Below are positions 8,615 through 22,048 of a DNA stretch of 64,000 nucleotides, one piece after another (position 1 is the stretch's first letter; every line of letters starts with the position of its first letter). Location of the stretch: NCBI GenBank assembly GCA_014323795.1, contig JACONK010000037.1, forward strand, positions 124,001-188,000, written 5' to 3'. The stretch comes from Paracoccaceae bacterium (GTDB lineage: Bacteria; Pseudomonadota; Alphaproteobacteria; Rhodobacterales; Rhodobacteraceae). The notes beneath the pieces were generated by a model. The model had not been told where the DNA came from, did no database searches, and saw nothing but the letters and a program-made list of their open reading frames with translations. Both the position numbers and the translations under genes were made by a program.

Positions 8615-9781
8615 TTACTTGCTCCCTTCAACCCAGCGCATGCCCCAGCCATAGGATTTATCCATGGGTTCGTGACCCGCGAAAAACCGCACTTCGCGTG
8701 ACACCCTGATTTCCCCGCCGATATTTTCAAGCAGGGCCACTGCGCACATGGTGTCACTGCCGCTGCCGGCCAGTTCGTTCATGCGCACCTCCACTTCCGG
8801 CTGCCCCGGTACCATCACCCGCACCACACCGTCGGTTTCCCGCCAATTGGCCACCCCTTCGTAAATGAAGGCGAAGATCAGCACACGCTTCATCAGATTC
8901 CACCGGTCACCGTTGATGTCAAGCCACTCTCCGCCAGATGCCGCGCCGCTGCGGTCATCCCCCTGCAGGACGGCGTAGGGAAAATCCTGCCAGGATCCGA
9001 AACTATCGCCCAAGGCCTGCACCGCAGTGCGGGATCCGTCCCGGGTTTCAATCAACGCGCCAAGGTCCAGATCAATGGCGGTGCTGCCTATGCCGAAGAA
9101 GCCGCCGGATTTCCTCTGGTTCCAGTCCAGATTCACCCGGATACGGCCAAAACGCCCGTCATCCTTCCCAAGCGATATGGTGCGTTCGGTTTTTGTCAGC
9201 GACACCTTGGACAGGCTGACAGGTTGCGGCGCGGGGGCGGGCTTTGGGGCTGGTTGGGGCTTTGGCGCGGGGGCGGGTTTTGGTGCGGGCTGCGGTGCGG
9301 CGACCTCCACGCCGAAATGCGTGGCCAGGGCGGCCAGGCCACCGTTGAAGCCTTAGCTGACATTGCGCAGTTTCCACTGCCCGTTGCGCCGGTAAATCTC
9401 TGCCAGAATCAGTGCCGCCTCGCTGCGCCCGGCGGTCTCCACGGCCAGCCTGTGGCCCTCGGAACTGGTCACCGTGACGGCAGAGGCGGTGCCGAAATTG
9501 CCCGCGTCCAGGGTGGCCGTGAACACAATCTTTTCCACATCACCGGCGAGTTTTGATGTGTCCACATCAAAGGTGCTGCGCCCGCCGGAGGTGGACAGGC
9601 GCACAGCCCCGCCGCCGATGGCGGGCTGGTTGAAAAAGCACATATCCCCGTCGCCGCGCACCCTGCCGCCTGCGTAGAGCAGGAGCGCACTGGCATCGGC
9701 GGCGGCACCGGCCACCTCAACGGTCAGGCTGACCTTCCGTCCGGACAGGGGCGCATTCGCGCCCAGGGAAAGCGTGGTCAT
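8615..9781 (-). pseudogene. terA: TerA-like protein (two TerD-type domains) interrupted by an in-frame TAA
   Basis: Read through one stop codon, this frame encodes 388 codons, close to the size of TerA (about 385 residues). The first 142 codons form a TerD-type domain (MTTLSLGANAPLSG start). A TAA at 9353-9355 then interrupts the frame exactly where every other TerD-family gene in this operon reads '(Q/A)G(F/Y)(N/E)GGL'. After it the frame continues GFNGGLAALATHFGVEVAAP, a Pro/Ala linker and a second TerD-like domain that ends at the TAA at 8615-8617. The simplest reading is a CAA (Gln) to TAA nonsense mutation. Without readthrough, a 142-residue N-terminal fragment is made; the only start for the rest is a weak GTG at 9310. 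Confidence 0.82.
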
Positions 9782-9823
9782 TCACATCCTCCAGCCCCCG
9801 CGCCCGGTGCGGGGGTACAAAGG

Positions 9824-10402
9824 TCAGCCCAGGGTTACGCCATGGGAGGCGGCAAGCGGCCCAAGGCCCCCTTCGAAGCCTGCGCCGACCGCCTTGAATT
9901 TCCACTCATCATTGTGGCGATAGAGTTCGCCAAAGACCATCGCCGTTTCAATGGAGTAGTCTTCCGAAAGGTCATAGCGGGCGATTTCCTTGCCGCCATC
10001 CTGGTTCACAACGCGCATGAAGGCGTTCGCCACCTGGCCGAAATTCTGGCTGCGCTGCGCCGCTTCGTGGATGGTTACGGCAAAAACCAGCTTTTTGACC
10101 TCGGCGGGCAGTTTTGACAGATCCACCTTGACCGCCTCATCATCGCCGTCGCCCGCGCCGGTGCGATTGTCGCCGGTATGTTACACCGCGCCATCAGGGC
10201 AGAGCTTGTTGTTGTAAAAGATGAAATGGCTGTCGGACATGACCTTGTCATCGGCCCCGCAGATGAACACCGACGCATCCAGATCAAAATCGGTGCCATC
10301 GGTGACACGGGCATCCCAGCCGAGGCCGACCAGAACCTGTGAAAGGCCAGGGGCCTCTTTGCTAAGGGAAATGTTACCGCCTTTGGAAAGGGAAACTGCC
10401 AT
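9824..10402 (-). pseudogene. terD: TerD protein interrupted by an in-frame TAA
   Basis: The frame has 192 codons, the length of TerD. It begins [15 protein letters not shown], the standard TerD N-terminus, and ends with the usual [10 protein letters not shown] tail. A TAA at 10181-10183 interrupts it after codon 73, just before the conserved [15 protein letters not shown] calcium-binding segment. The intact paralogue at 10465-11043 has Ser-His-Thr-Gly-Asp at the same place, so one sense codon (probably CAA or GAA) has become TAA. The downstream part alone would have to start at an ATG-less or internal site and would lack the N-terminal half. The neighbours on both sides keep normal operon spacing. 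Confidence 0.82.
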
Positions 10403-10464
10403 TGGAATGTGTCCTTATGTTTGGGTATGATGGATGGGGCCGCGCACAGGGTGGCCCCCCGGGC

Positions 10465-11043
10465 CTAGCTTGCGCTTAGGCCATATTGCGAGGCCATGGC
10501 CCCCAGGCCGCCGTTGTAGCCCTGGCCCACGGCACGGAATTTCCATTCACCATTATGGCGGTACAGTTCACCGAAGACCATTGCCGTCTCAGTCGAATAA
10601 TCTTCTGAGAGGTCGTAGCGCACAACCTCCGCCCCGTTATCTTCGTTGACGATGCGGATGAAGGCGTTGGCCACCTGGCCGAAGGATTGCCTGCGGGTTT
10701 CATGGTCGTGGATGGTCACTGTTACGGCCAGGGTCTGCACATCTGCCGGAACCTTGCTCAGGTCCACCCTGATCGCCTCATCATCGCCGTCGCCCGCACC
10801 AGTGCGGTTGTCACCGGTGTGGCTGACAGAACCGCAGGACGAATGCATCTGATTGTAAAAGATGAAATCCGCATCGCTGCGGCATTTGCCCCCGGCGTTC
10901 AGCATGAACAGGGAGGCATCCAGATCAAAATCCTGGCCGTCTGTGGCGCGCTCATCCCAGCCGAGGCCCAGAAGAACCCGCGTCAGGCCCGGGGCTTCCT
11001 TGCTGAGAGAGATATTCTGACCTTTTGAAAGCGACAGTGCCAT
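10465..11043 (-). CDS. terE: TerD-family protein (TerD/TerE type), intact
   Basis: This 192-residue TerD-domain protein begins [15 protein letters not shown] and contains [11 protein letters not shown] and the acidic calcium-site segment [15 protein letters not shown]. It ends with a [12 protein letters not shown] tail. TerD-domain proteins bind calcium and are cytosolic parts of the Ter stress-response complex. The open frame extends to 11217, but the ATG at 11043 gives the family N-terminus and is preceded by a GGAG site. It is the only complete member of the TerD/TerE pair here, because its downstream neighbour has a nonsense codon. TerD and TerE are hard to tell apart, so the symbol is tentative. 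Confidence 0.85.
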
Positions 11044-11081
11044 TGGCTTGGTCTCCTTGAAGTTAACAGGGCAGGGTTTGT

Positions 11082-12038
11082 TCAGATCAGATACTGGCTT
11101 ACAACAAAGGCCCCATAGCCCGCAAGCATAAAAATTCCAACCCCGCGGCCAACCCCGGCCTTGCCGCCAAACAGCAGCAATGCGGCGAACAGCAGGGTAA
11201 CGCCGGTTAAGACCCACATGTCAAAAGACGCAAACCGTTCAGCAATAATCAGGGGTTTTACGATTGCCGAGATTGCCATCACCGACAGAATGTTGAAAAT
11301 GTTGGACCCCAGAATGCCGCCAACGATCATGTCAAACTGGGCCTTGCGCGCCGCCGCGACACAGGCCGTCAGTTCCGGCAGCGAGGTTCCGAACGCAATC
11401 ACCGTGAGGCCGATCACCGATTCCGGCACCCCCAGGGACAGGCCACCGGCCACGGCACCCTGCACCAGGATTTCCGAGCCGACCAGCAGCGTTACCAGGC
11501 CAACGGCAAGCATCGCCCAGACCTTCCAGCCCTGCGCGTCGCTGCCTTCCACCTCATCCGTGTCCAGCCTGGAGGCGCGGTACTGATAGACGATGTACGT
11601 TATAATGGCCGCCACCATGGCCAGCCCGCCCCAGCGGGGCAGGATGCCGTGCAGAATGCCCGCGATCATCGCCGCCGTTGCCGCAAGCATGACGCACACA
11701 TCCACGCGCACTGCGCCGCGTTCCACCACAATCGGGGCAATGATGGCGCTGACCGCGACCACAAGCATGACATTGGCGATATTGGAGCCGATCACATTGC
11801 CCACAGAGATGCCGGGATAGCCTTTCAGGTTGGCGTTGACCGATGTGAACAGTTCCGGGGCCGAGGTACCAAAGGCCAGAATCGTCGCCGCGATGAACAG
11901 TTTGGACAGGCCGGATTGTTCCGCCGCGGCCACGGCGTTGTCAATGGTCCAGTCGCCGCCCTTGATCAGCAGATACACGCCAAAGGCGATTGCGCCCAGC
12001 GCAATAATGCCCAGCTGATAGGATGCGAGTTCATGCAT
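11082..12038 (-). CDS. CaCA-family calcium/sodium antiporter (YrbG type) within the Ter operon
   Basis: This 318-residue integral membrane protein shows the two inverted alpha-repeats of the Ca2+:cation antiporter superfamily: FGTSAPEL with [10 protein letters not shown] in the first half, and FGTSLPEL with [10 protein letters not shown] in the second. About ten hydrophobic segments are visible. It sits between terB and the TerD-family genes, where a typical ter cluster has the membrane protein TerC. Since TerD proteins bind calcium, moving calcium across the membrane would fit the system. That link is inference; the antiporter family call is firm. Confidence 0.85.
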
Positions 12039-12103
12039 GGAACGCCTCTTTCATGTCGTCACAGAAGGGCGCACATCCGGGGGTGCCGCCGGTCCGCCGG
12101 GGG

Positions 12104-12553
12104 TTACAGGTCAAATTCAGCGGGGTTCAGGCCCAAATCGCGGGCGATTTCGGCCACGATTGCGCGTTCATCCGCGTCAAAATCGCCATCGGCCGCGCCA
12201 ATCGCGCAGACAATGCGTACCAGCAGACGCGCCTGTGCCTCATTGCCCTTGATTTTGCCGATGGTTCTCAGGGCGGTTGCCTTGCCGATGGCGTGATCAA
12301 ACTCAAAATCCGCGGCGGTTTTCTGAAACAGTTCGATCACCTGGCGCATATCGAAATGTTTCAGCTCGTCGGCGCGTTCGATGAACCCCGCCATTTTTTG
12401 CTTTTCGCTTGCGTCAATGCTGCCATCGGCCGCCGCAACCAGGGCGCAGCCGCTGACGACCGCCTCCATAAAGGTGCGGTTTTTAAACTTCGCGACCTCT
12501 GCAGTCATCCTGGCGCGGGCCGTTGCGGTGTTTTCTTTCAGCCAGTTCAGCAT
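12104..12553 (-). CDS. terB: TerB family protein
   Basis: This 149-residue protein matches TerB in length (about 150) and pattern: an all-helical protein with acidic repeats such as AAADGSIDASEK near residue 45 and GAADGDFDADE near residue 125 that form the metal-binding sites of the family. TerB is thought to bridge TerD-domain proteins and the membrane component. It lies between terZ and the antiporter with normal operon spacing. The stop is a TAA at the expected C-terminus, which shows that TAA is read as stop in this operon. Confidence 0.88.
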   Translation of the reverse strand: MLNWLKENTATARARMTAEVAKFKNRTFMEAVVSGCALVAAADGSIDASEKQKMAGFIERADELKHFDMRQVIELFQKTAADFEFDHAIGKATALRTIGKIKGNEAQARLLVRIVCAIGAADGDFDADERAIVAEIARDLGLNPAEFDL

Positions 12554-12587
12554 TTCTTTCAGCCGGTTCAGTATTTTATGTTATTTT

Positions 12588-13184
12588 TTAAAGGATTGCA
12601 GCGGCGGCGGCGGCAATGTCGCGGGCACTGCGCCCGTCCGCGGGCCTGCCATGCGCCGTCATTTGCCAGCCGGTGCCGGTTTTTGCCATGGACGCCATGA
12701 TGACGCCGGTGTGCGGGCCCTGTTCGGCCAGTTGATAGCGGCAGATCTCCTTGCCAGCGGTTTCATCCACAAGCCGGGCAAAGGCGTTTTCAACCTCATT
12801 AAAGGTCTGGCCGCGAAAACTGTTCACGGTGAACACAAGGTAGTGCACCCGACTGTCAAGGCGGGCGAGATCCACATATATCACCTCATCATCGCCGTCG
12901 CCAGCACCGGTCAGATTGTCGCCGCCGTGCCGGATGGAGCCGTCTTTTGAATTCAGCTGGCCGTAATAGACCATATCCACTTCGGCCCGGTTGCCATCGA
13001 ACAGAATGACCGATGCGTCCAGATCAATTTCATCCGCCGCGCCACCGCCCAGAAGCCCGCTGAAAAAGCCCTTCTTCTTTTGCTGCGCCGGATCCCAGCC
13101 GCAGCCCATAAAAACCCTGGTCAGGCCCCCGCCGCCGTCCTTGGACAGGCTGATGGTCTGGCCCTTGCTTAGGTTAATGCTCAT
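12588..13184 (-). CDS. terZ: TerZ-like TerD-domain protein
   Basis: This 198-residue protein begins MSINLSKGQTISLSK and carries a TerD domain with EIDLDASVILFD and [15 protein letters not shown]. An insertion with KKKGFFSGLLGGG near residue 45 and an alanine-rich tail separate it from TerD/TerE and are usual for TerZ. It is the first gene of the minus-strand Ter operon. The open frame extends to 13256, but the ATG at 13184 is the family start. A sigma70-type promoter lies upstream at 13262-13290. It probably binds calcium like its paralogues. Confidence 0.83.
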   Translation of the reverse strand: MSINLSKGQTISLSKDGGGGLTRVFMGCGWDPAQQKKKGFFSGLLGGGAADEIDLDASVILFDGNRAEVDMVYYGQLNSKDGSIRHGGDNLTGAGDGDDEVIYVDLARLDSRVHYLVFTVNSFRGQTFNEVENAFARLVDETAGKEICRYQLAEQGPHTGVIMASMAKTGTGWQMTAHGRPADGRSARDIAAAAAAIL

Positions 13185-13261
13185 CGTGCCTTGCCTTTCC
13201 TGTGCTGTTTTCCGGCGGATGTCGGCCTGTTTCCACATGGTCCGGTGCAGCCGCAACCCTG

Positions 13262-13290: not shown

Positions 13291-13318
13291 GCGCGAATGT
13301 GGCACGGCGGTGAATCCT

Positions 13319-13430
13319 TGTTACGCCCCCGGCCTTTTACGCATGCCGCACCAGCCGGGCGGTGTCGTTTTGGAAGCGGCGTTTGGCCCGGGTGCGGTTC
13401 GGCACCGCATCGTTCAGGGCGTTGAAAAGG
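13319..13430 (-). pseudogene. Degenerate 3'-end remnant of an MmeI-like methyltransferase (copy A)
   Basis: Read on the minus strand, about 30 codons ending at a TAA (13337-13339) give NDAVPNRTRAKRRFQNDTAR followed by a short tail. This matches the last 35 residues of the methyltransferase at 16336 (NDEVVERIQAGRRFRNDTDR and onwards). The DNA is recognisably similar from the stop-codon region upward, with substitutions and small gaps. No further methyltransferase sequence follows, so only the 3' tip remains. Confidence 0.65.
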
Positions 13431-13432
13431 CT

Positions 13433-13460
13433 TTTAAAGGCGGTTTAACGGCCCTTTAAA
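13433..13460. repeat. Inverted repeat (8-bp arms, 12-base loop)
   Basis: TTTAAAGG (13433-13440) and its complement CCTTTAAA (13453-13460) flank a 12-base loop, just beyond methyltransferase remnant A. It could fold as a hairpin, but no T-run follows closely enough to call it a terminator. Its role is unknown. Confidence 0.4.
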
Positions 13461-13545
13461 CGGCGTTTTCTCCCTCGATTTCGGGCACTTCTGCAAGGAT
13501 TCGGCAGCACGGGCCTGCGCCGCGGGTGGCAGGGTCATTTCCCGG

Positions 13546-13758
13546 TCATTTTCCCAGGGGCGGGTCCAAGTTCCACTTTTGTCCGAACAACTTCGGGAAG
13601 GATGAATATGGCAGGTCAGGCAGTTCGGGTTTCGGCCTGTCGCGCAGCCCCCGCCGCCGCTGACGGCGCACCGGGGCATCCCCGGATGCGGCGCGTTGTT
13701 CTTCCAATTGCCGGCGGAATTCTTCCAGCGCGGCTTCAAAATCTTCCTCGGTTCTCAT
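13546..13758 (-). CDS. Small hypothetical protein, 70 residues
   Basis: The ATG at 13758 is preceded by a good GGGAGAA ribosome site, and the 70-residue product has a charged coiled-coil-like N-terminus (EEDFEAALEEFRRQLEEQ) and a basic Arg/Pro middle. I do not recognise a family. It follows the SDH protease on the same strand after 125 bases and may belong to the same cassette. The alternative start at 13806 adds 16 residues and has no clear ribosome site. Confidence 0.5.
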   Translation of the reverse strand: MRTEEDFEAALEEFRRQLEEQRAASGDAPVRRQRRRGLRDRPKPELPDLPYSSFPKLFGQKWNLDPPLGK

Positions 13759-13883
13759 TTCGATTCTCCCTGGCTTGAGGTTATCACCTCGGTTTTCCCT
13801 GGCCAACTCCCGGCCAGCAGAAGGGGCCTAACGCCCCAGGTTCAGGAAACGGTGCTTTGTGTGTATGGCAATTCCGCTTCCCA

Positions 13884-14417
13884 TCATGGTGCAATAATCT
13901 CGGAGTCAGAGATCGGCTTCTTGTTCGCCAACTCATCGTACTTTCTCAGATAGCCCAGCCCAAGCACCGAACGCCCGTCCGATGCGCGAATTTGAGGATC
14001 AATCGGTCCAAGAACAGAATAATAGTCCATATATATCTCATCCCCGGAAAGGCAAAGCACTGTGCCCGCGGAGTAGGCAAAATTCGGCACAACAAAAACC
14101 ACGGTTTTGAAGTGTTGGCGGAATACGTCACTGATCCGCTCAACCACTTCAACGAAACCACCGTCCGTCTCCAGAACGACAATCAGCTTATCGTGCCGGT
14201 TTTCCCCTGCCACGAGTGTCTCCACTTCTCTTCTGACGATGTCGTCAATACCATGGTGCATCGGTGCACGGATGAGAATGGCTTCCCCCGATAAATTCTC
14301 TTCCAGTGATTCACATCTCTCCTTCAAAAGATTTTCGATGATATCGTTGCACCTGATATGATTCATGATGTTGATGATCCGGTTCTCGTTAACGCACAGA
14401 CACCTAATGGCAATCAT
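13884..14417 (-). CDS. SDH-family Clp-fold (SppA-like) serine protease, C-terminally truncated
   Basis: This 177-residue product resembles the N-terminal two thirds of the Ser-Asp-His Clp-fold serine proteases. LIVVLETDGGFVEVVERI is followed by the nucleophile region NFAYSAGT and then by MDYYSVLGPIDPQ. Family members known to me continue for roughly another 100 residues after the point where this frame ends (TGA after IIAP), and no continuing homology is visible in any frame downstream, so the gene looks truncated. It overlaps the end of the small upstream gene by 14 bases, a pairing typical of this family. An alternative ATG is at 14366. It may be a proteolytic stress or defence effector, now possibly inactive. 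Confidence 0.65.
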   Translation of the reverse strand: MIAIRCLCVNENRIINIMNHIRCNDIIENLLKERCESLEENLSGEAILIRAPMHHGIDDIVRREVETLVAGENRHDKLIVVLETDGGFVEVVERISDVFRQHFKTVVFVVPNFAYSAGTVLCLSGDEIYMDYYSVLGPIDPQIRASDGRSVLGLGYLRKYDELANKKPISDSEIIAP

Positions 14418-14595
14418 TGAAGGTCAAGGGTACAAAATCCCCGTTCTGAATAGCCTTTTCAAGCCGCAGAACCTCTTCACAGACGCCTTCTTCGGTTGCC
14501 TTGTACGGGTTGTCCACGAAAAATTTCACGTTCGTCAGGCCGTCCTTCTGTTTTTTCCTATACAGGTCGGCGACGCGGTCGATTGCACTGGTCAT
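14404..14595 (-). CDS. Small protein paired with the SDH protease
   Basis: The ATG at 14595 follows an AAAGGGG ribosome site and gives 63 residues: a helical start (AIDRVADLYRKKQKDG), then VKFFVDNP and a C-terminal PLTFND motif. Small proteins of this pattern are commonly encoded directly upstream of SDH/Clp-fold proteases. Their function is unknown; they may be an adaptor or an antitoxin. The frame extends to 14646 without a better start. It is translationally coupled to the protease by overlap. Confidence 0.6.
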   Translation of the reverse strand: MTSAIDRVADLYRKKQKDGLTNVKFFVDNPYKATEEGVCEEVLRLEKAIQNGDFVPLTFNDCH

Positions 14596-14654
14596 GTCTT
14601 TACCCCTTTCTGCGCTTCTTGCGTTCGCGGCGCGGTATTCGGCCACTGACGTAC

Positions 14655-14664
14655 AAACCGGTTT
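14655..14664. promoter_or_regulatory. Palindrome AAACCGGTTT at the SDH promoter start site (possible operator)
   Basis: A perfect 10-bp palindrome lies 7 bases downstream of the -10 box of the minus-strand promoter 14672-14699, so it would straddle the transcription start. This placement suits repressor binding. No regulator gene is seen beside it, and short palindromes can occur by chance. Confidence 0.35.
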
Positions 14665-14671
14665 ACAAACC

Positions 14672-14699
14672 TATATAAAATAAAACTTGCTAATAACAA
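14672..14699 (-). promoter_or_regulatory. Promoter for the small-protein / SDH-protease pair
   Basis: On the minus strand, TTGTTA (14694-14699) and TATATA (14672-14677) are separated by 16 bases. The surrounding sequence is much more AT-rich than the rest of the window and includes a 10-bp inverted repeat (14676-14685 with 14701-14710). It lies about 75 bases upstream of the ATG at 14595. Confidence 0.55.
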
Positions 14700-14722
14700 C
14701 TTTTATTTTAATCGGGGTCATT

Positions 14723-14746
14723 ACACACACACACACACACACACAC
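14723..14746. repeat. (AC)12 dinucleotide microsatellite
   Basis: Twelve uninterrupted AC units lie in the intergenic space upstream of the SDH promoter. Long dinucleotide tracts are unusual in bacteria and prone to slippage. Confidence 0.95.
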
Positions 14747-14910
14747 AAACATGTTGCATATTTGGCACACTCCGCCCCACTGGTGCAACCTTCACAAATT
14801 CATACGCCCAGGCACGGCCCGGGGGTACGCGGGGTTCCCGTTTTTTCACGGGTGTCATTTTCATTCCACAGCCTGGCAACCGGGCGGGGTGTGCGCCCGG
14901 TCAGTGAATG

Positions 14911-15010
14911 GTCGCCTCCCCTGCCCTTTCATACATGCCGCAACAGCCATTTCAGGCGGCGTTCGGCCCGGATGCGGTTCGGCACCTCATCATTGCGGGC
15001 CGGAACGCGG
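14911..15010 (-). pseudogene. Degenerate 3'-end remnant of an MmeI-like methyltransferase (copy B)
   Basis: On the minus strand this reads ARNDEVPNRIRAERRLKWLL, ending at a TGA (14929-14931). The last 38 residues of the intact 3' end at 16336 read ARNDEVVERIQAGRRF, then a seven-residue segment missing here, then RLEWLF. The DNA aligns well apart from a 21-base in-frame deletion. Only the 3' tip of the gene is present. Confidence 0.7.
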
Positions 15011-15100
15011 GCCTGGGGGGATTATACATTTGCATAAGCCATTGCGATTGATGAAGATTATGCCGCTCAGAACGCGCTGGTCATCGGCACACGGCTTGCC

Positions 15101-15532
15101 GTGGGATCTTGGGGAAAGGGCTCAAGACGCGCCATCCGCGCATCTGTCAGCCGGAACATGCCAGAGAGGCCTTTCGTGCGCTGTAGGGCAACCTGCATAT
15201 TCTACCCCCCTCACGCACCCCCCGATACTGCCCGGTCGCGCATTCCCTTGTATCGACTGGAGGTCAATCCCCTCCGCCCCCACACGAATGCATTTATTGG
15301 CCCGGAGGCTCTGCACGGCCTGTATTTTGCCGCGGGATGCACACATGAACACGATTTTCACGACAGTTTGACAAAAGATGGAACGTTGCGCAAAAATCCA
15401 CTTGCAATCGCGCGTGAGGCTGTCGTTGACCCGGCGGATTTTTCCAACGGGCTGGCTGTGTTCTGTAACAAGGTGAACCTGGTGAACGGATCGGACATTC
15501 CCGCGCCACCAGCCCAGGGGGCGTTCCTGTGA
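15101..15532 (+). CDS. Hypothetical protein, first gene of an unknown two-gene module
   Basis: I do not recognise a family with certainty. The frame from a GTG at 15101 encodes 143 residues with a convincing protein-like core (IPLYRLEVNPLRPHTNAFIG, then THEHDFHDSLTKDGTLRKNP) and ends NLVNGSDIPAPP. The stop overlaps the GTG of the next gene, so the two are coupled. Protein-like sequence (AAQNALVIGTRLAVGSWGKG) continues upstream in the same frame as far as a TAA at about 15042. The true start is therefore uncertain, and the gene may have lost its 5' end at methyltransferase remnant B. Confidence 0.5.
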   Translation: MGSWGKGSRRAIRASVSRNMPERPFVRCRATCIFYPPHAPPDTARSRIPLYRLEVNPLRPHTNAFIGPEALHGLYFAAGCTHEHDFHDSLTKDGTLRKNPLAIAREAVVDPADFSNGLAVFCNKVNLVNGSDIPAPPAQGAFL

Positions 15533-16299
15533 TTCTTGAAAAGGCAAATAGCGGGCTTCGGGAGCGGCTGAAAGAATCGTGTGCCGGGTTAATGGCAAGC
15601 CGGGGTTCAATCGGTGGCCGTATTTTGCTTGATGTCCCGACGATTTATCCCAGCGGGGCGTCTGCCGTGGTTGAGATTGAGCGGAATGGTGACCGGGTCC
15701 GGGTCTCTGACATGGGCAATGGGCTGCTTGAGGCAGAGATGATGGCGGCACAGGACGGCTACCGGCCCCTTGCCAGAAAGAAGGCGCAGGCGTTCGGCAT
15801 CGGCTTTGACAACCGGGACAACCGGGCGCTGTTTACGCTTTGGGTGCCCGAGGGGCGGCTCGGGGGGGCCATTATCTGTGTGGCCAACGCCTCAACCCAG
15901 GCAGCGGCAGAGGCGGTGCGGGTGGCATCGGAGGCGCGGGCGCGGCAGAAGGCCGAAGCGGTATTTGAGCGCATTGACCGTGTGTTCGGTTCCCGCGCCA
16001 CAGCCAGAACGGCAGAGATCAGGGGGCGGCGGGCGACCTGGAATGCCCGCAACGTTGTGACGCTGCCCAATGCCAGGCGGGCAATCTTTGAGCCGATGAA
16101 CAACAACACCGGCTCGGTTTCCGGCAAGTTCCTGATGTTCACGGATATTCGGGAAGCGGGTGCCGGAATTGCGCTCAACGCTGTTGTGGAAGACAGCCAA
16201 AACCTGAATGCGAAGGCACAGATGGTCGCAGACCTCGCGAACATCATAGACATCCGGTCACCGGACGAAATGTTTAAGCGCATGGGCGTGGCGGGATAA
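15529..16299 (+). CDS. Hypothetical protein, DUF1828-like, second gene of the module
   Basis: This 256-residue protein starts at a GTG that overlaps the previous stop. The N-terminal part, with a hydrophilic beta-rich stretch and RVRVSDMGNGLLEAEMM, resembles DUF1828-type proteins (the pattern 'V.D.G..L'). The C-terminal half has a conserved-looking FLMFTDIREAGAGIALNAVVED segment. DUF1828 proteins appear in phage-related and defence-related small operons, but their biochemical role is unknown. The gene ends 36 bases from the convergent methyltransferase 3' end. The DUF match is a recollection of pattern, not a search result. Confidence 0.6.
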   Translation: MILEKANSGLRERLKESCAGLMASRGSIGGRILLDVPTIYPSGASAVVEIERNGDRVRVSDMGNGLLEAEMMAAQDGYRPLARKKAQAFGIGFDNRDNRALFTLWVPEGRLGGAIICVANASTQAAAEAVRVASEARARQKAEAVFERIDRVFGSRATARTAEIRGRRATWNARNVVTLPNARRAIFEPMNNNTGSVSGKFLMFTDIREAGAGIALNAVVEDSQNLNAKAQMVADLANIIDIRSPDEMFKRMGVAG

Positions 16300-16335
16300 G
16301 GGTGCGGAAGCAGGGCCCGGTGCGGCACACACACG

Positions 16336-18420
16336 TTACGCCACCCCCGTCTGCCCTTTCACGTAGGCTTCGAACAGCCATTCCAGGCGGTCGGTGTCGT
16401 TGCGGAAGCGGCGGCCGGCCTGGATGCGTTCCACAACCTCATCGTTGCGGGCGTGGGCGCGGCAAAGGGGTTCGGGCGTGGCACCGGGGGCGTAGAGGTC
16501 TGCGATGGTGGCGGGGAAGCAGGCCTCGCGGGCCAGCAGGATATCTTTGGCACATTCAGCCAGGCGGGCCTTGTCGTTCTGCGTCAGCGGGGGAAGGGGA
16601 AAGGTGTTCCAGCCCAGGGTGTTGGAATATCTGAAGCGGGTTTCCAGCCGGGAACAGACGGCCCCGACCCAGACCAGATGCAGGCGGGAGGCGAGGATGG
16701 CCAGGTTCCACAGCGGCGCGTCGTAAAGGGCGAAATTGCTGTTACTGATAATGGCACCCGGCGGCACCAGGCCGACCGGAAAGTATTCGCGATGTTCTGA
16801 ACTGACACCCGGGATGACGATTGTTTGTTCATCCCCGCGCTGGCGAACCTCACCGAAACGATGCGGGGTATTTGCCAATTGTCGCGTCGTCTCACTCCTT
16901 GAAGATAAGCGGTGCCGGCGCACCGCCTCAAACCTCGCGCAAAGCCAGGCGTTCTCTTTCGCTTCGGCGTATTCACTGTCCGCAACCCATATGCAGCGCC
17001 GCTCTTCACCTCTGATAAACTCTTTGGACCCGACAATGGGTTTGATGAATTTAGAAGGAACATCATGCGCATTGATGGCGGCATCCGCCTGTGAAAAGCT
17101 AAGCAACAGATGCCCGCCGTCATTCGGCATATTCCCGAACTGCATATCCGCAACATCGGCCAGGGGTTTGGGGCGGGGCGTCACGATCACATCCGGGGCG
17201 GCGATCAGATATGCGTTGATATGGGTGCAGGTGCGCCGGGTTGTGCCGCCATCGGCCAGGGTAAACAGGCGGCGGGGCGTGGCCGGGCGGCGGGACAGGC
17301 CCACAATCACCACGCTGACGCCGGCGTTATATTTGGCCAGGTTGGCCCATTTGAAACTGTTATGGGCAAAGGCAATCCGGGCACCCGTGGCAAAAAGCGC
17401 GGGCCACAGAACAGGCACCTGACGCCCCTGGCAGATGGAATTGGTGGCCACAAAGGCGCAATCGGCGGGCGTGGCGCGTGCATAATCCGCCGCCTTCATA
17501 AACCAGCCGGACACATAATCCAGCGATTTCCAGTTTTTCACCCGGCCGTCAAAAACGGCTTTCAGATCTTCCTTCTGTTCCTTTGATTTCCATTGCGACC
17601 CACGATAGGGCGGGTTGCCGCAGATAAAGGTTGTGCCGCCCTCATTGGCAAAGGCGCGCCCGGCCTGCTGCGGGGTGTGGAACAGGTCTTCGGCCCGCTG
17701 GTCCACCCCGGTGCCCGCCGGCGGGCAGACAGAACGCCAATCCAGCCGCAGGGCATTGCCGCAGGTGATCCAGTTGCGGGCGTCCAGGGGCAGGAATTCG
17801 GCCAGGGCCTCCGCCTGGCCCCGGTGGGCCACGTCACACTGATACTCAGCGATAATCAGGGCCAGGCGGGCAATTTCCGCCGGGAAACTGTTGAGCTCAA
17901 TGCCGCGAAAATTGGTCAGGGGAATGGTGCTGCGGCGGCCGGCCTCCCCCAGGCGGGCGTTGATTTCCGCCTCTATCCCGCGCAGTTCCTTGTAGGCGAT
18001 TACCAGAAAGTTGCCGGACCCGCAGGCCGGATCAAACACCCGGATCCGGGCCAGGCTTTTGCGCAGGTTCCCCAGTTTTCGGCGGTTATTCCCGGCCGCC
18101 TGCAATTACGCGCGCAGGGCATCCAAAAACAGCGGGTCCAGCACCTTGCGGATATTGGGGACGGACGTGTAATGCATCCCCAGGCTGGCCCGTTCGCCTT
18201 CATCGGCGACGGCCTGGATCATGGACCCGAAAATATCCGGGTTGATCTGCGTCCAGTCCAGCGCGCCGATATGCAACAGGTAAGACCGCGCCGCCTGGCC
18301 AATGTTCGGGACCGCCGCCGGGCCATCAAACAGCCCGCCATTGACATAGGGAAAGGCCGCGGCCCAGGGGCGCAGCGCGGGCGGATCTGTGGCGGGCACG
18401 GATGGGTCTGCGGCGGGCAT
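16336..18420 (-). pseudogene. MmeI-like class I DNA methyltransferase, 5'-truncated and with an in-frame TAA
   Basis: The frame from an ATG at 18420 (with a GGGGGAG ribosome site) encodes 694 codons, broken by a TAA at 18106-18108. Before the stop, AFPYVNGGLFDG and GMHYTSVPNIRKVLDPLFLD match the segment that normally precedes the SAM motif. After it the same frame continues into DPACGSGNF (motif I) and CGNPPY (motif IV), then the target-recognition and C-terminal regions. Family members usually have about 200-250 more N-terminal residues, including a nuclease domain in MmeI itself; these are absent here. An N6-adenine methyltransferase is expected from NPPY. The gene is divergent from the helicase and separated from it by an IS remnant. 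Without readthrough, only a 104-residue fragment or a weak TTG-started C-terminal part would form. Confidence 0.8.
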
Positions 18421-18577
18421 GAGCTCCCCCTGTTTGCGGCTGTGGCGGGGCGGCAGCCTATCACACCAGGGCCATGCATGAAAATGCCGTTGAACCGGGC
18501 GGGCGGATGTGCGGGAATGACCTCCCGGCCCGAAGGGCCGGTTGACGGGATTTATACGGTAAAATCCCAAATTGCCC

Positions 18578-18822: not shown

Positions 18823-20799
18823 ATGCCCGAAACACTATCTGTCACCTATGCCCAAAGCGGGGCCTCGACCCAATCCAATGAACGGGGCATGCGCCCGATG
18901 CAGGAACGCGCCTGGGCCAGGCGGGGGGAACAGTACCTGCTGATCAAATCCCCGCCGGCCTCGGGCAAATCGCGGGCACTGATGTTCATCGCGCTGGATA
19001 AACTGCACAGGCAGGGGCTGCGCAAGGCCATCATCTGTGTGCCGGAAACCGCCATCGGGGCAAGTTTTGCCGATGAACCCCTGTCCCGTTTCGGCTTTGA
19101 TTGGGATTGGCAGGTGGCACCGCGGTGGAACCTGTGTAACGCCCCGGGCGGCGATGAAGGCAAGGTGGGTGCTGTCCAAACCTTTCTTGCCAGCGCGGGC
19201 CGGGTATTGGTCTGCACCCATGCGACCTTCCGCTTTGCCGTTGCCCGGTTCGGCTGTGCGGCGTTTGACGATTGCCTGATCGCGGTGGATGAGGTGCACC
19301 ACGTTTCCGCCAACCCGGACAACCGGCTGGGCGCACTGCTGGCCGAGCTGATCGCCCGTGCTAGGGCGCATATCCTGGCCATGACGGGCAGTTATTTCCG
19401 GGGCGACGCAGCCCCTGTGCTGACCCCCGGGGATGAGGCGAAATTCGATACCGTTACCTACACCTACTATGAACAGCTCAACGGCTATCAGCATCTTAAG
19501 GCACTCGATATCGGCTATGCCTTCTATACCGGTGCCTATGTTGACCGGATCGGGGATGTGCTTGACCCGGCTGAAAAGACGATCATTCACATCCCTTCGG
19601 TCAATGCGCGCGAAAGCACGAAGGATAAAAACCGGGAAGTTGAGCGCATCATCGATGCCCTGGGCAGCTGGCAGGGAACAGACGAGGCCACGGGATTTCA
19701 GCTTGTCAAAACCGCGCAGGGCCGTGTGCTGCGCATCGCCGACCTGGTGGATGATATGCCCGCAAGGCGCGGCAGGGTGTCGGCCGCGCTGAAAGACCCG
19801 GACCAGAAAAACAACCGCGATCATGTGGATATTATCATCGCCCTGGGCATGGCCAAGGAAGGTTTTGACTGGATCTGGTGCGAACACGCGCTGACCGTCG
19901 GCTATCGGTCCAGCCTGACAGAAATCGTGCAGATTATCGGGCGGGCGACCCGCGATGCGCCGGGCAAGACCCGTGCCCGATTCACCAATCTGATCGCCGA
20001 ACCGGACGCATCAGAAGAAAATGTGGCCGAAGCCATCAACGATACGCTGAAAGCCATCGCCGCAAGCCTGCTGATGGAACAGGTGCTGGCCCCGCGCTTT
20101 CATTTCACGCCGAAAAGCCCGGACAGCGGGCCGGCGGACGGGTTCGACTATGGCACAACCGGCTATAACCCGGACGGGAACAACATCGGATTTAATGAGC
20201 ACAGCGGACAATTGCATATGGAAATCAAGGGGCTGGCCAGGCCTGAAAGCCCGGAAGCCAGCCGCATTTGCCGGGAAGACCTCAACGAGGTGATCACCGC
20301 CTTTGTTCAGGATAAAACGGCAATTGAACGCGGGATGTTTGACGAAGAGGTGGCACCCCAGGAACTGACCCAGGCGCGCATGGGCAAGATTGTCCGGGAC
20401 AAATACCCGGACCTGGGCGAACGGGATCAGGAAGCGGTGCGCCAGCACGCGATTGCCGCGCTGAACGTGACACAGCAGGCAAGGCAGGCTGCCGTTTCGG
20501 GGGCTGAAACGGATGCCCGGGCCGGCGGCAATACGGCACTGATCGAAGGGGTGCGCAGGTTTGCGATGGATGTGCGCGACCTGGACATTGACCTGATTGA
20601 CAGCATCAACCCTTTCAGCGCGGCCTATGCCATCCTGGCCAAAACCATGAATGAGGAAAGGCTGCAGCAGGTCGCCCGCGTGATCGCGGCAAGGCGCGTG
20701 CAGATTGACCCGGAGGAGGCGCGCGCCCTGGCCCGGCGGGCCCTTAAGTTCAGGCAGGACCGGGGGCGGCTGCCGGCCGTCACATCCCCGGACGCCTAG
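18823..20799 (+). CDS. SF2 DEAD/DEAH-box helicase, short C-terminal truncation by TAG
   Basis: This 658-residue superfamily 2 helicase has Walker A PPASGKS near residue 44, the box DEVHH near residue 157, a motif III-like MTGSY near residue 187 and motif VI QIIGRATRDAPGK near residue 370. After the TAG at 20797-20799 the same frame continues for 21 codons (ERRMAEGVEVLRRMQREA) and ends at a TGA at 20866, overlapping the next ATG. Relatives end with a pattern like 'DPWEKRMAEG', so TGG (Trp) has probably become TAG. The helicase core is complete. With the divergent methyltransferase and the downstream nuclease it looks like part of a restriction-modification-type defence system. Confidence 0.82.
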   Translation: MPETLSVTYAQSGASTQSNERGMRPMQERAWARRGEQYLLIKSPPASGKSRALMFIALDKLHRQGLRKAIICVPETAIGASFADEPLSRFGFDWDWQVAPRWNLCNAPGGDEGKVGAVQTFLASAGRVLVCTHATFRFAVARFGCAAFDDCLIAVDEVHHVSANPDNRLGALLAELIARARAHILAMTGSYFRGDAAPVLTPGDEAKFDTVTYTYYEQLNGYQHLKALDIGYAFYTGAYVDRIGDVLDPAEKTIIHIPSVNARESTKDKNREVERIIDALGSWQGTDEATGFQLVKTAQGRVLRIADLVDDMPARRGRVSAALKDPDQKNNRDHVDIIIALGMAKEGFDWIWCEHALTVGYRSSLTEIVQIIGRATRDAPGKTRARFTNLIAEPDASEENVAEAINDTLKAIAASLLMEQVLAPRFHFTPKSPDSGPADGFDYGTTGYNPDGNNIGFNEHSGQLHMEIKGLARPESPEASRICREDLNEVITAFVQDKTAIERGMFDEEVAPQELTQARMGKIVRDKYPDLGERDQEAVRQHAIAALNVTQQARQAAVSGAETDARAGGNTALIEGVRRFAMDVRDLDIDLIDSINPFSAAYAILAKTMNEERLQQVARVIAARRVQIDPEEARALARRALKFRQDRGRLPAVTSPDA

Positions 20800-20857
20800 G
20801 AACGGCGCATGGCCGAAGGTGTGGAAGTCCTGCGCCGGATGCAGCGGGAGGCCGCCA

Positions 20858-22048
20858 ATGCCTGATGCGTTCACCGAAGAAGACGCGGCCCTGCTGGCCG
20901 CGCTGGGCATTGAGGCAGACACCGGGGCACCCGCCCCCCACACCGCGCAGGAAGAGCGGATCATCGCAGGTTTTGCGGAGATCCAGTGCTTTGCCGAATC
21001 CCATGGCCGCCCCCCGCAGCCGGGTGCGGGCCGCCCCATCCTGGAACGGCTGCATGCGGTGCGGCTGGACCGCATCCGGCACATGGCAGAGGCCCGCGCC
21101 CTGGTTGAACCGACAGATCATCAGGGGCTTCTTGCCGGGGCCATGTCCGGTGCTGCCGGCACGGAAGAGGGGCCCGATGATGACGCCGCACTGCTGGCAG
21201 AACTCGGGCGCGGGGATGAAACACGGCCCATCACCGAATTGCGCCATGTCCGCTCAACCGCCGAAAGGCGGGCCGCCGAAGACATCGCCAACCGCCAGCG
21301 CTGCACGGATTTTGACAGGTTCAAACCGCTGTTTGAACAGGTGCAGCACGAGCTGAATGCCGGCCTGCGGGAAACGCGCCCCTTTGCGCGCAAGGCTGAA
21401 ATTGAACAGGGGCGGTTTTTCATTGTCGGCGGGCAGAAAGCCTATGTGGCGGAAAAGGGGGATGAATTCCCAAATAAAAAAGGGCATACTGATGCCCGCC
21501 TGCGCGTGATTTTTGACAACGGCACCGAAAGTGATCTGCTGATGCGGTCGCTTCAGCGGGCCCTGCACAAGGATGACGCGGGCCGGCGCATCACCGAACC
21601 GGAGGCCGGGCCCCTGTTCGCCGCCAGCGCGGCGGAAGGCGACATGGCCAGCGGCACCATCTATGTGCTGCGCAGCATGTCCGATCATCCGGTCGTCGCG
21701 CAAAACCGGGAGACCGTGCACAAGATCGGCGTGACCGGCGGTTCTGTGGAAAGCCGCATCGCGCATGCCCGGCAGGACCCCACCTTCCTGATGGCAGACG
21801 TTGAGATTGTCGCGACCTACGATCTTTTCAACATCAATCGCAGCAGGCTGGAAAACCTGATCCACCGCATCTTTGCCGCGGCCCGGCTTGACATAGAAAT
21901 CACAGACAGGTTCGGCCAGCCCGTCACCCCGCGCGAATGGTTTCTGGTGCCGATCGAGGCCATTGAAGAGGCCATTGACCGGATCAGGGACGGCTCCATC
22001 GCCGGATATTTTTATGATCCGCAGACGGCACAGCTGATGATGCGCTGA
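20858..22048 (+). CDS. GIY-YIG nuclease family protein (T5orf172 type)
   Basis: This 396-residue protein has a C-terminal GIY-YIG-type nuclease domain at about residues 265-360. GTIYVLRS forms the first strand (the 'GIY' position), HKIGVTGGSVESRI supplies the 'YIG' and the catalytic Arg region, and ENLIHRIF supplies the metal-binding Glu. The N-terminal 200 residues are helical and Ala/Glu-rich. The ATG at 20858 follows a GGGAGG site and overlaps the original helicase end. It is probably the DNA-cutting component that works with the helicase, with self-protection by the methyltransferase. The pairing is inferred from context. Confidence 0.8.
   Translation: MPDAFTEEDAALLAALGIEADTGAPAPHTAQEERIIAGFAEIQCFAESHGRPPQPGAGRPILERLHAVRLDRIRHMAEARALVEPTDHQGLLAGAMSGAAGTEEGPDDDAALLAELGRGDETRPITELRHVRSTAERRAAEDIANRQRCTDFDRFKPLFEQVQHELNAGLRETRPFARKAEIEQGRFFIVGGQKAYVAEKGDEFPNKKGHTDARLRVIFDNGTESDLLMRSLQRALHKDDAGRRITEPEAGPLFAASAAEGDMASGTIYVLRSMSDHPVVAQNRETVHKIGVTGGSVESRIAHARQDPTFLMADVEIVATYDLFNINRSRLENLIHRIFAAARLDIEITDRFGQPVTPREWFLVPIEAIEEAIDRIRDGSIAGYFYDPQTAQLMMR

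Follow-up and report, generated by a model that had tools for sequence, protein, structure and literature searches.

A 64,000-nucleotide stretch of DNA from a Paracoccaceae bacterium (GenBank assembly GCA_014323795.1, contig JACONK010000037.1, positions 124,001 to 188,000), here called the window, carries part of an MmeI-like methyltransferase gene and two decayed copies of the 3' end of that gene, tips A and B. We compared these with related loci, in which the interval between the MmeI-like gene and its partner helicase gene is a slot for defence and toxin-antitoxin genes. The reading that we favour, with a probability of roughly two in three, is that cassettes in this slot are exchanged through the flanking genes and that misplaced exchanges stack cassettes and leave scars. 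The window copy of the system is inverted, interrupted by an insertion sequence (IS) fragment and decayed, with no recognisable helicase half in either tip, and the mechanism was therefore taken from the relatives rather than from the window itself.

Copies of the gene end in the window

The original prediction held that degenerate copies of the MmeI 3' end lie in the orientation of the gene itself, and this was confirmed. Local alignment scores were 61 for A against B, 62 for A against the gene and 48 for B against the gene, with shuffle maxima of 30, 31 and 32, and for each pair none of 1000 dinucleotide shuffles reached the real score. A, B and the gene end share one orientation, all on the minus strand. 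In a sensitive self-BLAST, A and B aligned over 125 columns with 69.6% identity (13298-13420 and 14890-15000). Tip A matched the gene at 76% (13351-13422 and 16383-16454), and tip B matched it in two segments, at 76% (14956-15010 and 16408-16462) and 80% (14921-14959 and 16351-16390). Among 132 MmeI tails the window's own tail was the best match for A (score 38, next 30) and for B (29, next 23.5).

Compared with the gene, both copies carry in-frame deletions. A few bases beyond the tip are common to A and B and absent from the gene, which would fit either copying of one from the other or descent of both from an older 3' end. Searches of the genome's own DNA with A, B and the gene end gave no further copy of comparable strength. 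A profile search of the same genome found one separate MmeI C-terminal-like fragment on contig C18 (L125, G000:C18:167852-167932), which is unlike tip A or tip B. Both tips sit between inserts downstream of MmeI, as the scars of relatives do. We regard A and B with moderate confidence as old decayed scars, which would once have carried helicase halves.

The MmeI-helicase slot in related loci

The comparison covered 132 MmeI loci, that is, the window and 80 + 36 + 15 relatives. The 80 are the best 80 of 241 from named genomes, and the 36 are the stronger tail-profile matches in samples of the class (386 genomes) and of the phylum (397 genomes). From one further family 20 stronger tails were taken, of which 5 were duplicates of loci already in the set, leaving 15 to be added. 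A duplicate check over all loci returned the same five and the sister pair L044/L053 (tails 99% identical, the following 500 nucleotides (nt) the same, and 86% identity over the last 600 nt of MmeI); the pair was counted as two loci.

In 123 of the 132 loci MmeI is followed by a co-oriented DEAD/DEAH helicase gene. The core is predicted to be a three-gene restriction-type operon of an MmeI-like methyltransferase-nuclease, a DEAD/DEAH helicase and a GIY-YIG-like protein. The E. coli counterparts are annotated as DNA methyltransferase, DEAD/DEAH helicase and GIY-YIG nuclease family protein, and the first two genes overlap by 4 bases in both stretches examined. The query MmeI was matched in 75 of 5426 E. 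coli genomes, with no match covering more than 80% of the query. Within the window's own genus an MmeI match was found in 4 of 33 genomes, and in one of these, G029, two loci have the three core genes (MmeI, helicase, T5orf172) in collinear order, the helicase gene directly adjoining MmeI.

The MmeI-helicase gap is shorter than 100 bp in 37 of the 123 loci, 100-2000 bp in 64 and at least 2 kb in 22. ATGA ends 77 of 121 MmeI genes; this count is more useful than that of NTGA (91/121), which is weak by design. In 46 of 73 loci the first forward open reading frame (ORF) in the gap begins exactly in the MmeI stop overlap. We scanned 108 of 156 gap ORFs, from the first 108 collinear loci; those left out are mainly shorter than 80 amino acids (aa), on the opposite strand or copies in sister loci. 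Among the 25 of 41 Pfam families listed for the 108 proteins were YhcG/DUF1016 (10), SLFN_AlbA_2 (10), RhuM (8), PDDEXK_4 (4), Fic (4), Mrr (3), BrnT (3) and CcdB (2), with AAA_13, Abi_2, DarT and YafQ seen once each. None of the families listed was a recombinase or integrase, attC sites being outside this search. Several slot genes match PADLOC candidate-defence models ('PDC-S').

The downstream end of the MmeI gene had been proposed as a hotspot for cassette acquisition. Cassettes do vary downstream of MmeI in relatives, which supports the proposal, and the hotspot is more precisely the MmeI-helicase gap, the helicase 5' end being a boundary as well.

Unrelated cassettes in similar operons

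Loci were paired as close when their MmeI tails were at least 78% and their helicase heads at least 80% alike; the pairs overlap. Gap contents were unrelated in 29 of 43 such pairs. In 16 of these 29 the homology broke off no more than 5 nt from the MmeI stop, in 17 it resumed no more than 5 nt from the helicase start, and in 12 both boundaries were this sharp. Loci L074 and L075, for example, are 97% identical in the MmeI tail and 88% in the helicase head and have gaps of 419 and 2682 bp; their homology stops at the MmeI stop (+0) and returns at helicase position +3.

An SLFN cassette begins in the MmeI stop in L028, L036 and L069. In L030, L044 and L187 it is the second cassette, after a scar, and is 95-96% identical among the three, while their scars are only 68-75% identical and their first cassettes differ (CcdAB-like, no family and HEPN-like). 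This pattern would fit stacking of a new cassette before the old one, followed by re-exchange of the first cassette via the scar. A DUF1016 cassette reduced to its 3' end and adjoining the helicase gene was seen at L056:12545-12736 and L099:12569-12754, which suggests replacement from the MmeI side.

Scars in related loci

Copies of a locus's own MmeI tail were found in 9 of the 132 loci (6/81, 3/36 and 0/15 in the successive samples): L029, L052 (weak), L067, L081 (three tips), L087, L122, L123, L129 and the window (two tips). All 12 tips are downstream of the gene and co-oriented with it. Their starts are 74 to 234 nt ahead of the stop, except in L087, where the distance is greater; 8 of 9 aligned tips fall within the last 240 nt of the gene. 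Mid-gene control segments were not repeated (0/81, 0/35 and 0/15). Two other control segments gave weak matches in 2 of 81 loci each: the one 450-300 nt before the stop in L040 (inverted) and L087 (belonging to the composite remnant that also holds its tip), and the 150 nt that follow the stop in L054 and L055. At L040:15924-15986 an internal MmeI segment is copied inverted downstream of the gene, on the strand opposite to that of all tips.

Nine of 123 loci have a copy of the helicase head in the MmeI-helicase gap, namely L029, L030, L067, L122, L123 and the sister loci L044, L053, L075 and L094, which share one scar. These copies stop at helicase nucleotides 85 to 101. Helicase-head/MmeI-tail fusions are clear in three loci, L067, L122 and L123, where they stand between cassettes. 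There the DNA upstream of the tip scored 24.5, 28 and 22 against the locus's own helicase head, with shuffle maxima of 18.5, 14.5 and 19 and 0/300 shuffles reaching each score; one fusion reads ...NELGMRPMQ/ERIYIGRRF.... In L030, L044 and the plasmid locus L187 the scar consists of a helicase head and the last MmeI codons and precedes one SLFN_AlbA_2 cassette; in L030 and L187 a single frame runs from the start of the helicase part through to the final MmeI codons, and its stop overlaps the start of the next cassette. On its downstream side the scar ORF shares 4 bases with the neighboring gene in L067, L122 and L123 and a single base in L029; on its upstream side the overlap is 4 bases in L067, L122 and L029 and 47 in L123.

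Scars of any kind (MmeI tail, helicase head or fused) are present in 12 of 22 gaps of at least 2 kb and in 0 of 101 shorter or empty gaps (Fisher p 4.5e-11; 8.8e-9 with the four sister loci counted as one). If L053 is dropped, 11 of 21 long gaps have scars. The earlier idea that each event leaves a tip behind is supported by the tips of relatives. The clearest of them are fusions between stacked cassettes, and for this reason would mark misplaced exchange and not simple insertion.

Three further observations concern single loci. In Spirulina subsalsa (L081:12521-14429) the three tips follow, in turn, an NTP_transf_2/HepT-like pair and two DUF2281/PIN pairs. At L029:14353-14434 the helicase-head scar is in frame after what appears by eye to be the start of a PIN-type toxin gene. 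At L124:5606-5683 (G384:C440), near a contig end, an orphan degenerate MmeI tail stands right before an apparent PDDEXK_4-type cassette.

Other searches for tips were negative. The 15 added loci of the last family, with the stronger tails, held none, and profile searches in the families of G278, G473 and G626 (9, 74 and 297 genomes) gave no new genome with two adjacent tail matches on a contig. A composite helicase/MmeI query against plasmids was matched by its MmeI part alone among the 40 records listed out of 77.

A model for cassette exchange and its alternatives

In the mechanism that we propose, the MmeI-helicase junction, usually a 4-base stop/start overlap, would be the exchange slot for defence or toxin-antitoxin cassettes. 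An incoming segment composed of an MmeI 3' part, a new cassette and a helicase 5' part would recombine with the resident operon via the flanking genes. With both crossovers in register the product would be a clean cassette swap. If the incoming helicase head joined the resident MmeI tail at a short resemblance, the new cassette would be stacked before the old one; in three loci this resemblance lies around the [Q/L]ERxY codons. Such a misplaced exchange would leave a small open fusion frame of helicase head and MmeI tail between the stacked cassettes. The scar would often keep stop/start overlaps with its neighbors, may serve as an additional homology arm when the first cassette is swapped again, and would decay to a tip over time. 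Tips A and B would be decayed scars of this kind in an operon later broken by an inversion of about 20 kb.

Several results weigh against this mechanism. The ERxY junction is only a moderate resemblance, being the top in-frame site in 14 of 108 loci and within the top 100 of 53,601 sites in 78 of 108. No donor molecule or recent event was seen. At the sensitivity used, 10 of 22 long gaps have no scar; the extra length of long gaps gives more chance of a match, and related loci are included in the scar counts. Helicase-internal control queries gave weak matches in 5 of 123 loci, none of them within the gap as judged by position. The helicase-head half was not found in tips A and B (scores 9.5 and 10.0, shuffle means 9.9 and 9.8), nor in L081 with its three tips, L052 or L087, and the test was borderline in L129 (5/300 shuffles). 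L029 carries a head scar apart from its tip, the match to a head on the tip itself being no more than suggestive, and in L081 the helicase gene is upstream of MmeI.

The most serious alternative, which we nevertheless think unlikely, is that a tandem duplication of whole operons, or the arrival of a second operon alongside, was followed by a deletion from helicase head to MmeI tail, which left two cassettes and a fusion scar. The same product, with junctions at short resemblances, would be expected, and G029 has two separate MmeI operons in one genome. However, a profile scan of 81 loci found no second full MmeI tail beside the gene, and deletion alone leaves the clean swaps of one cassette unexplained. 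Somewhat less probable still is that the two window tips go back to two distinct, earlier MmeI-type systems, which succeeded one another at this site. This would suit the features and flank that A and B share and the present gene lacks, as well as the other MmeI C-terminal-like fragment kept in the genome. It is hard to reconcile with the window's own tail being the best of 132 for both tips, and with the confinement of 8 of 9 aligned tips to the last 240 nt while mid-gene segments are unrepeated.

A site-specific integrase that inserts cassettes at the MmeI 3' end and duplicates that end, like islands in tRNA genes, would account for insertion at one end and for co-oriented 3'-end duplicates, yet it has little probability in our view: copy starts vary (74 to 234 nt before the stop, and more in L087), helicase heads are left too, and the families listed for the 108 gap proteins (25 of 41) include no recombinase. 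A fixed integrase core is ruled out by the variable start points. Chance or compositional similarity, which the short and degenerate copies might bring to mind, has next to no probability; it is ruled out by the shuffles (0/1000 for each pair) together with the one-sided, one-strand placement of tips in relatives.

A broader and tentative view, to which we give somewhat less than even odds, is that the MmeI-helicase junction is an integrase-free cassette platform, with the coding ends of the core genes as homology arms and the scar mini-genes, in-frame fusions of helicase head and MmeI tail that overlap the genes beside them, as translational bridges and new landing pads. On such a platform several defence cassettes could be stacked and the first re-exchanged with expression unbroken.

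Relation to known systems

Under the heading 'guilt-by-embedding', a 2024 preprint by Payne et al. reportedly deals with defence genes that sit inside other immune operons, those of restriction-modification among them. PMC12255303 cites that work on embedding and places DarTG2 between hsdS and hsdR in a Type I system, at a site called a potential recombination hotspot. According to PMC3874165, prrC lies inside a Type IC operon and MmeI is a Type IIL restriction enzyme; BREX-related systems are treated in PMC12839542. The relatives studied here likewise hold unrelated defence or toxin-antitoxin genes (DUF1016, RhuM, AAA_13, PDDEXK_4 and others) between the core genes of another immune system, MmeI and helicase. 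The host operon differs in being MmeI-helicase-GIY-YIG, and its scars and swap boundaries suggest a route of embedding. The DarTG2 and prrC sites are also slots within restriction-modification operons, of Type I there and MmeI-like here, and the passages on them in PMC12255303 and PMC3874165 mention no tail/head scars. The window gene shares the methyltransferase, recognition and C-terminal domains of MmeI Type IIL enzymes but is split and carries a stop, and its relatives share their operon with genes for a helicase and a GIY-YIG-like protein.

Integron arrays stack variable small genes, including toxin-antitoxin pairs, beside a fixed gene, which resembles the present arrangement; here exchange appears to use flanking coding sequences, and no integrase is among the families listed. 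Islands made by 3'-end integrases differ in having a fixed duplicated core, whereas here the starts vary and helicase heads are duplicated too. Embedding of defence genes is thus already known. For the helicase-head/MmeI-tail scars we found no account in the literature: searches on MmeI remnants, embedding, RhuM/DUF1016, hsdR hotspots and truncated copies gave no such scars as judged by the titles and abstract beginnings of the papers listed, which is not proof of absence.

Fusion scars and swap boundaries would form a readable record of exchanges that bears on how embedded genes enter, and scars would test which genes travel as units. They also offer a route to unknown defence genes, as whatever lies between a scar and the next core gene.

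The broken MmeI-like gene and its surroundings

The features of the window are collected in Table 1. A methyltransferase gene had been placed at 16336; its MmeI domains were found (PF20473, 6.3e-114; PF20466, 3.7e-82; PF20467, 2e-9, all in the ORF 16336-18105), and the gene itself proved to be split and to carry a stop. An in-frame stop at 18106-18108 parts this ORF from an upstream ORF of 236 aa, the end of which is still MmeI-like; homology to an intact relative starts at window position 18429. The missing N-terminal part (about 220-228 residues) was found at G000:C37:121488-122147 (+), approximately 1.9 kb left of the window, preceded by genes that we take to be YidC-like and GTPase-like. 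In L029, unlike in the window, MmeI is one chain. The window gene thus appears, as judged from its domains, to be a broken member of the MmeI-like Type IIL/IIG enzymes.

TABLE 1 Positions of the core genes, tips and neighboring features in the window
Feature	Position	Strand	Evidence
3' part of MmeI-like methyltransferase gene (methyltransferase, target-recognition and C-terminal domains)	16336..18429	-	Domains and comparison with relatives
Tip A, decayed copy of MmeI-like gene 3' end	13298..13425	-	Alignment, self-BLAST, comparison with 132 tails
Tip B, decayed copy of MmeI-like gene 3' end, about 7 codons deleted	14890..15010	-	Alignment, self-BLAST, comparison with 132 tails
Partner DEAD/DEAH helicase gene, divergent from MmeI here	18823..20799	+	
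T5orf172/MUG113 gene, third gene of core operon; E. coli counterpart annotated GIY-YIG nuclease family	20705..22048	+	
ClpP-like SDH-type protease fragment, A-B cassette; profile positions 96-177 of 286, probably truncated	13884..14417	-	
Small ORF, A-B cassette, no family found	14404..14646	-	
Small ORF, A-B cassette, no family found	13546..13806	-	
Uncharacterized 256-aa ORF, opposite in strand to MmeI and lying between it and tip B	15529..16299	+	
123-bp fragment of multicopy IS transposase gene, about 25 bp from tip B	15036..15158	-	
TerD gene, start of ter cluster just beyond tip A	12588..13256	-	

Since the N-terminal part of MmeI is on the plus strand left of the window, roughly 20 kb of DNA has been inverted, unless the assembly is in error; one breakpoint falls within MmeI and the other immediately ahead of the helicase gene at 18823. 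The inversion is the reason why the window helicase is divergent from MmeI. At its ends only weak inverted repeats were found (E 0.24 and 0.65). The order before inversion would have been MmeI, the 256-aa ORF (opposite strand), the IS fragment, tip B, the SDH cassette, tip A, the ter cluster and others, the helicase gene and the T5orf172 gene.

Neither the SDH fragment nor the 256-aa ORF matched PADLOC models, and the window's cassette proteins had no match at E<=1e-3 in the 116 other loci searched. The IS fragment at 15036-15158 is presumably of IS5 type, going by a motif; the genome holds several copies of this transposase gene, mostly 82-85% identical. The ter cluster (8615-13256), with TerD copies and neighbors, lies just past tip A in the same orientation as MmeI and was possibly a large third cassette before the inversion.

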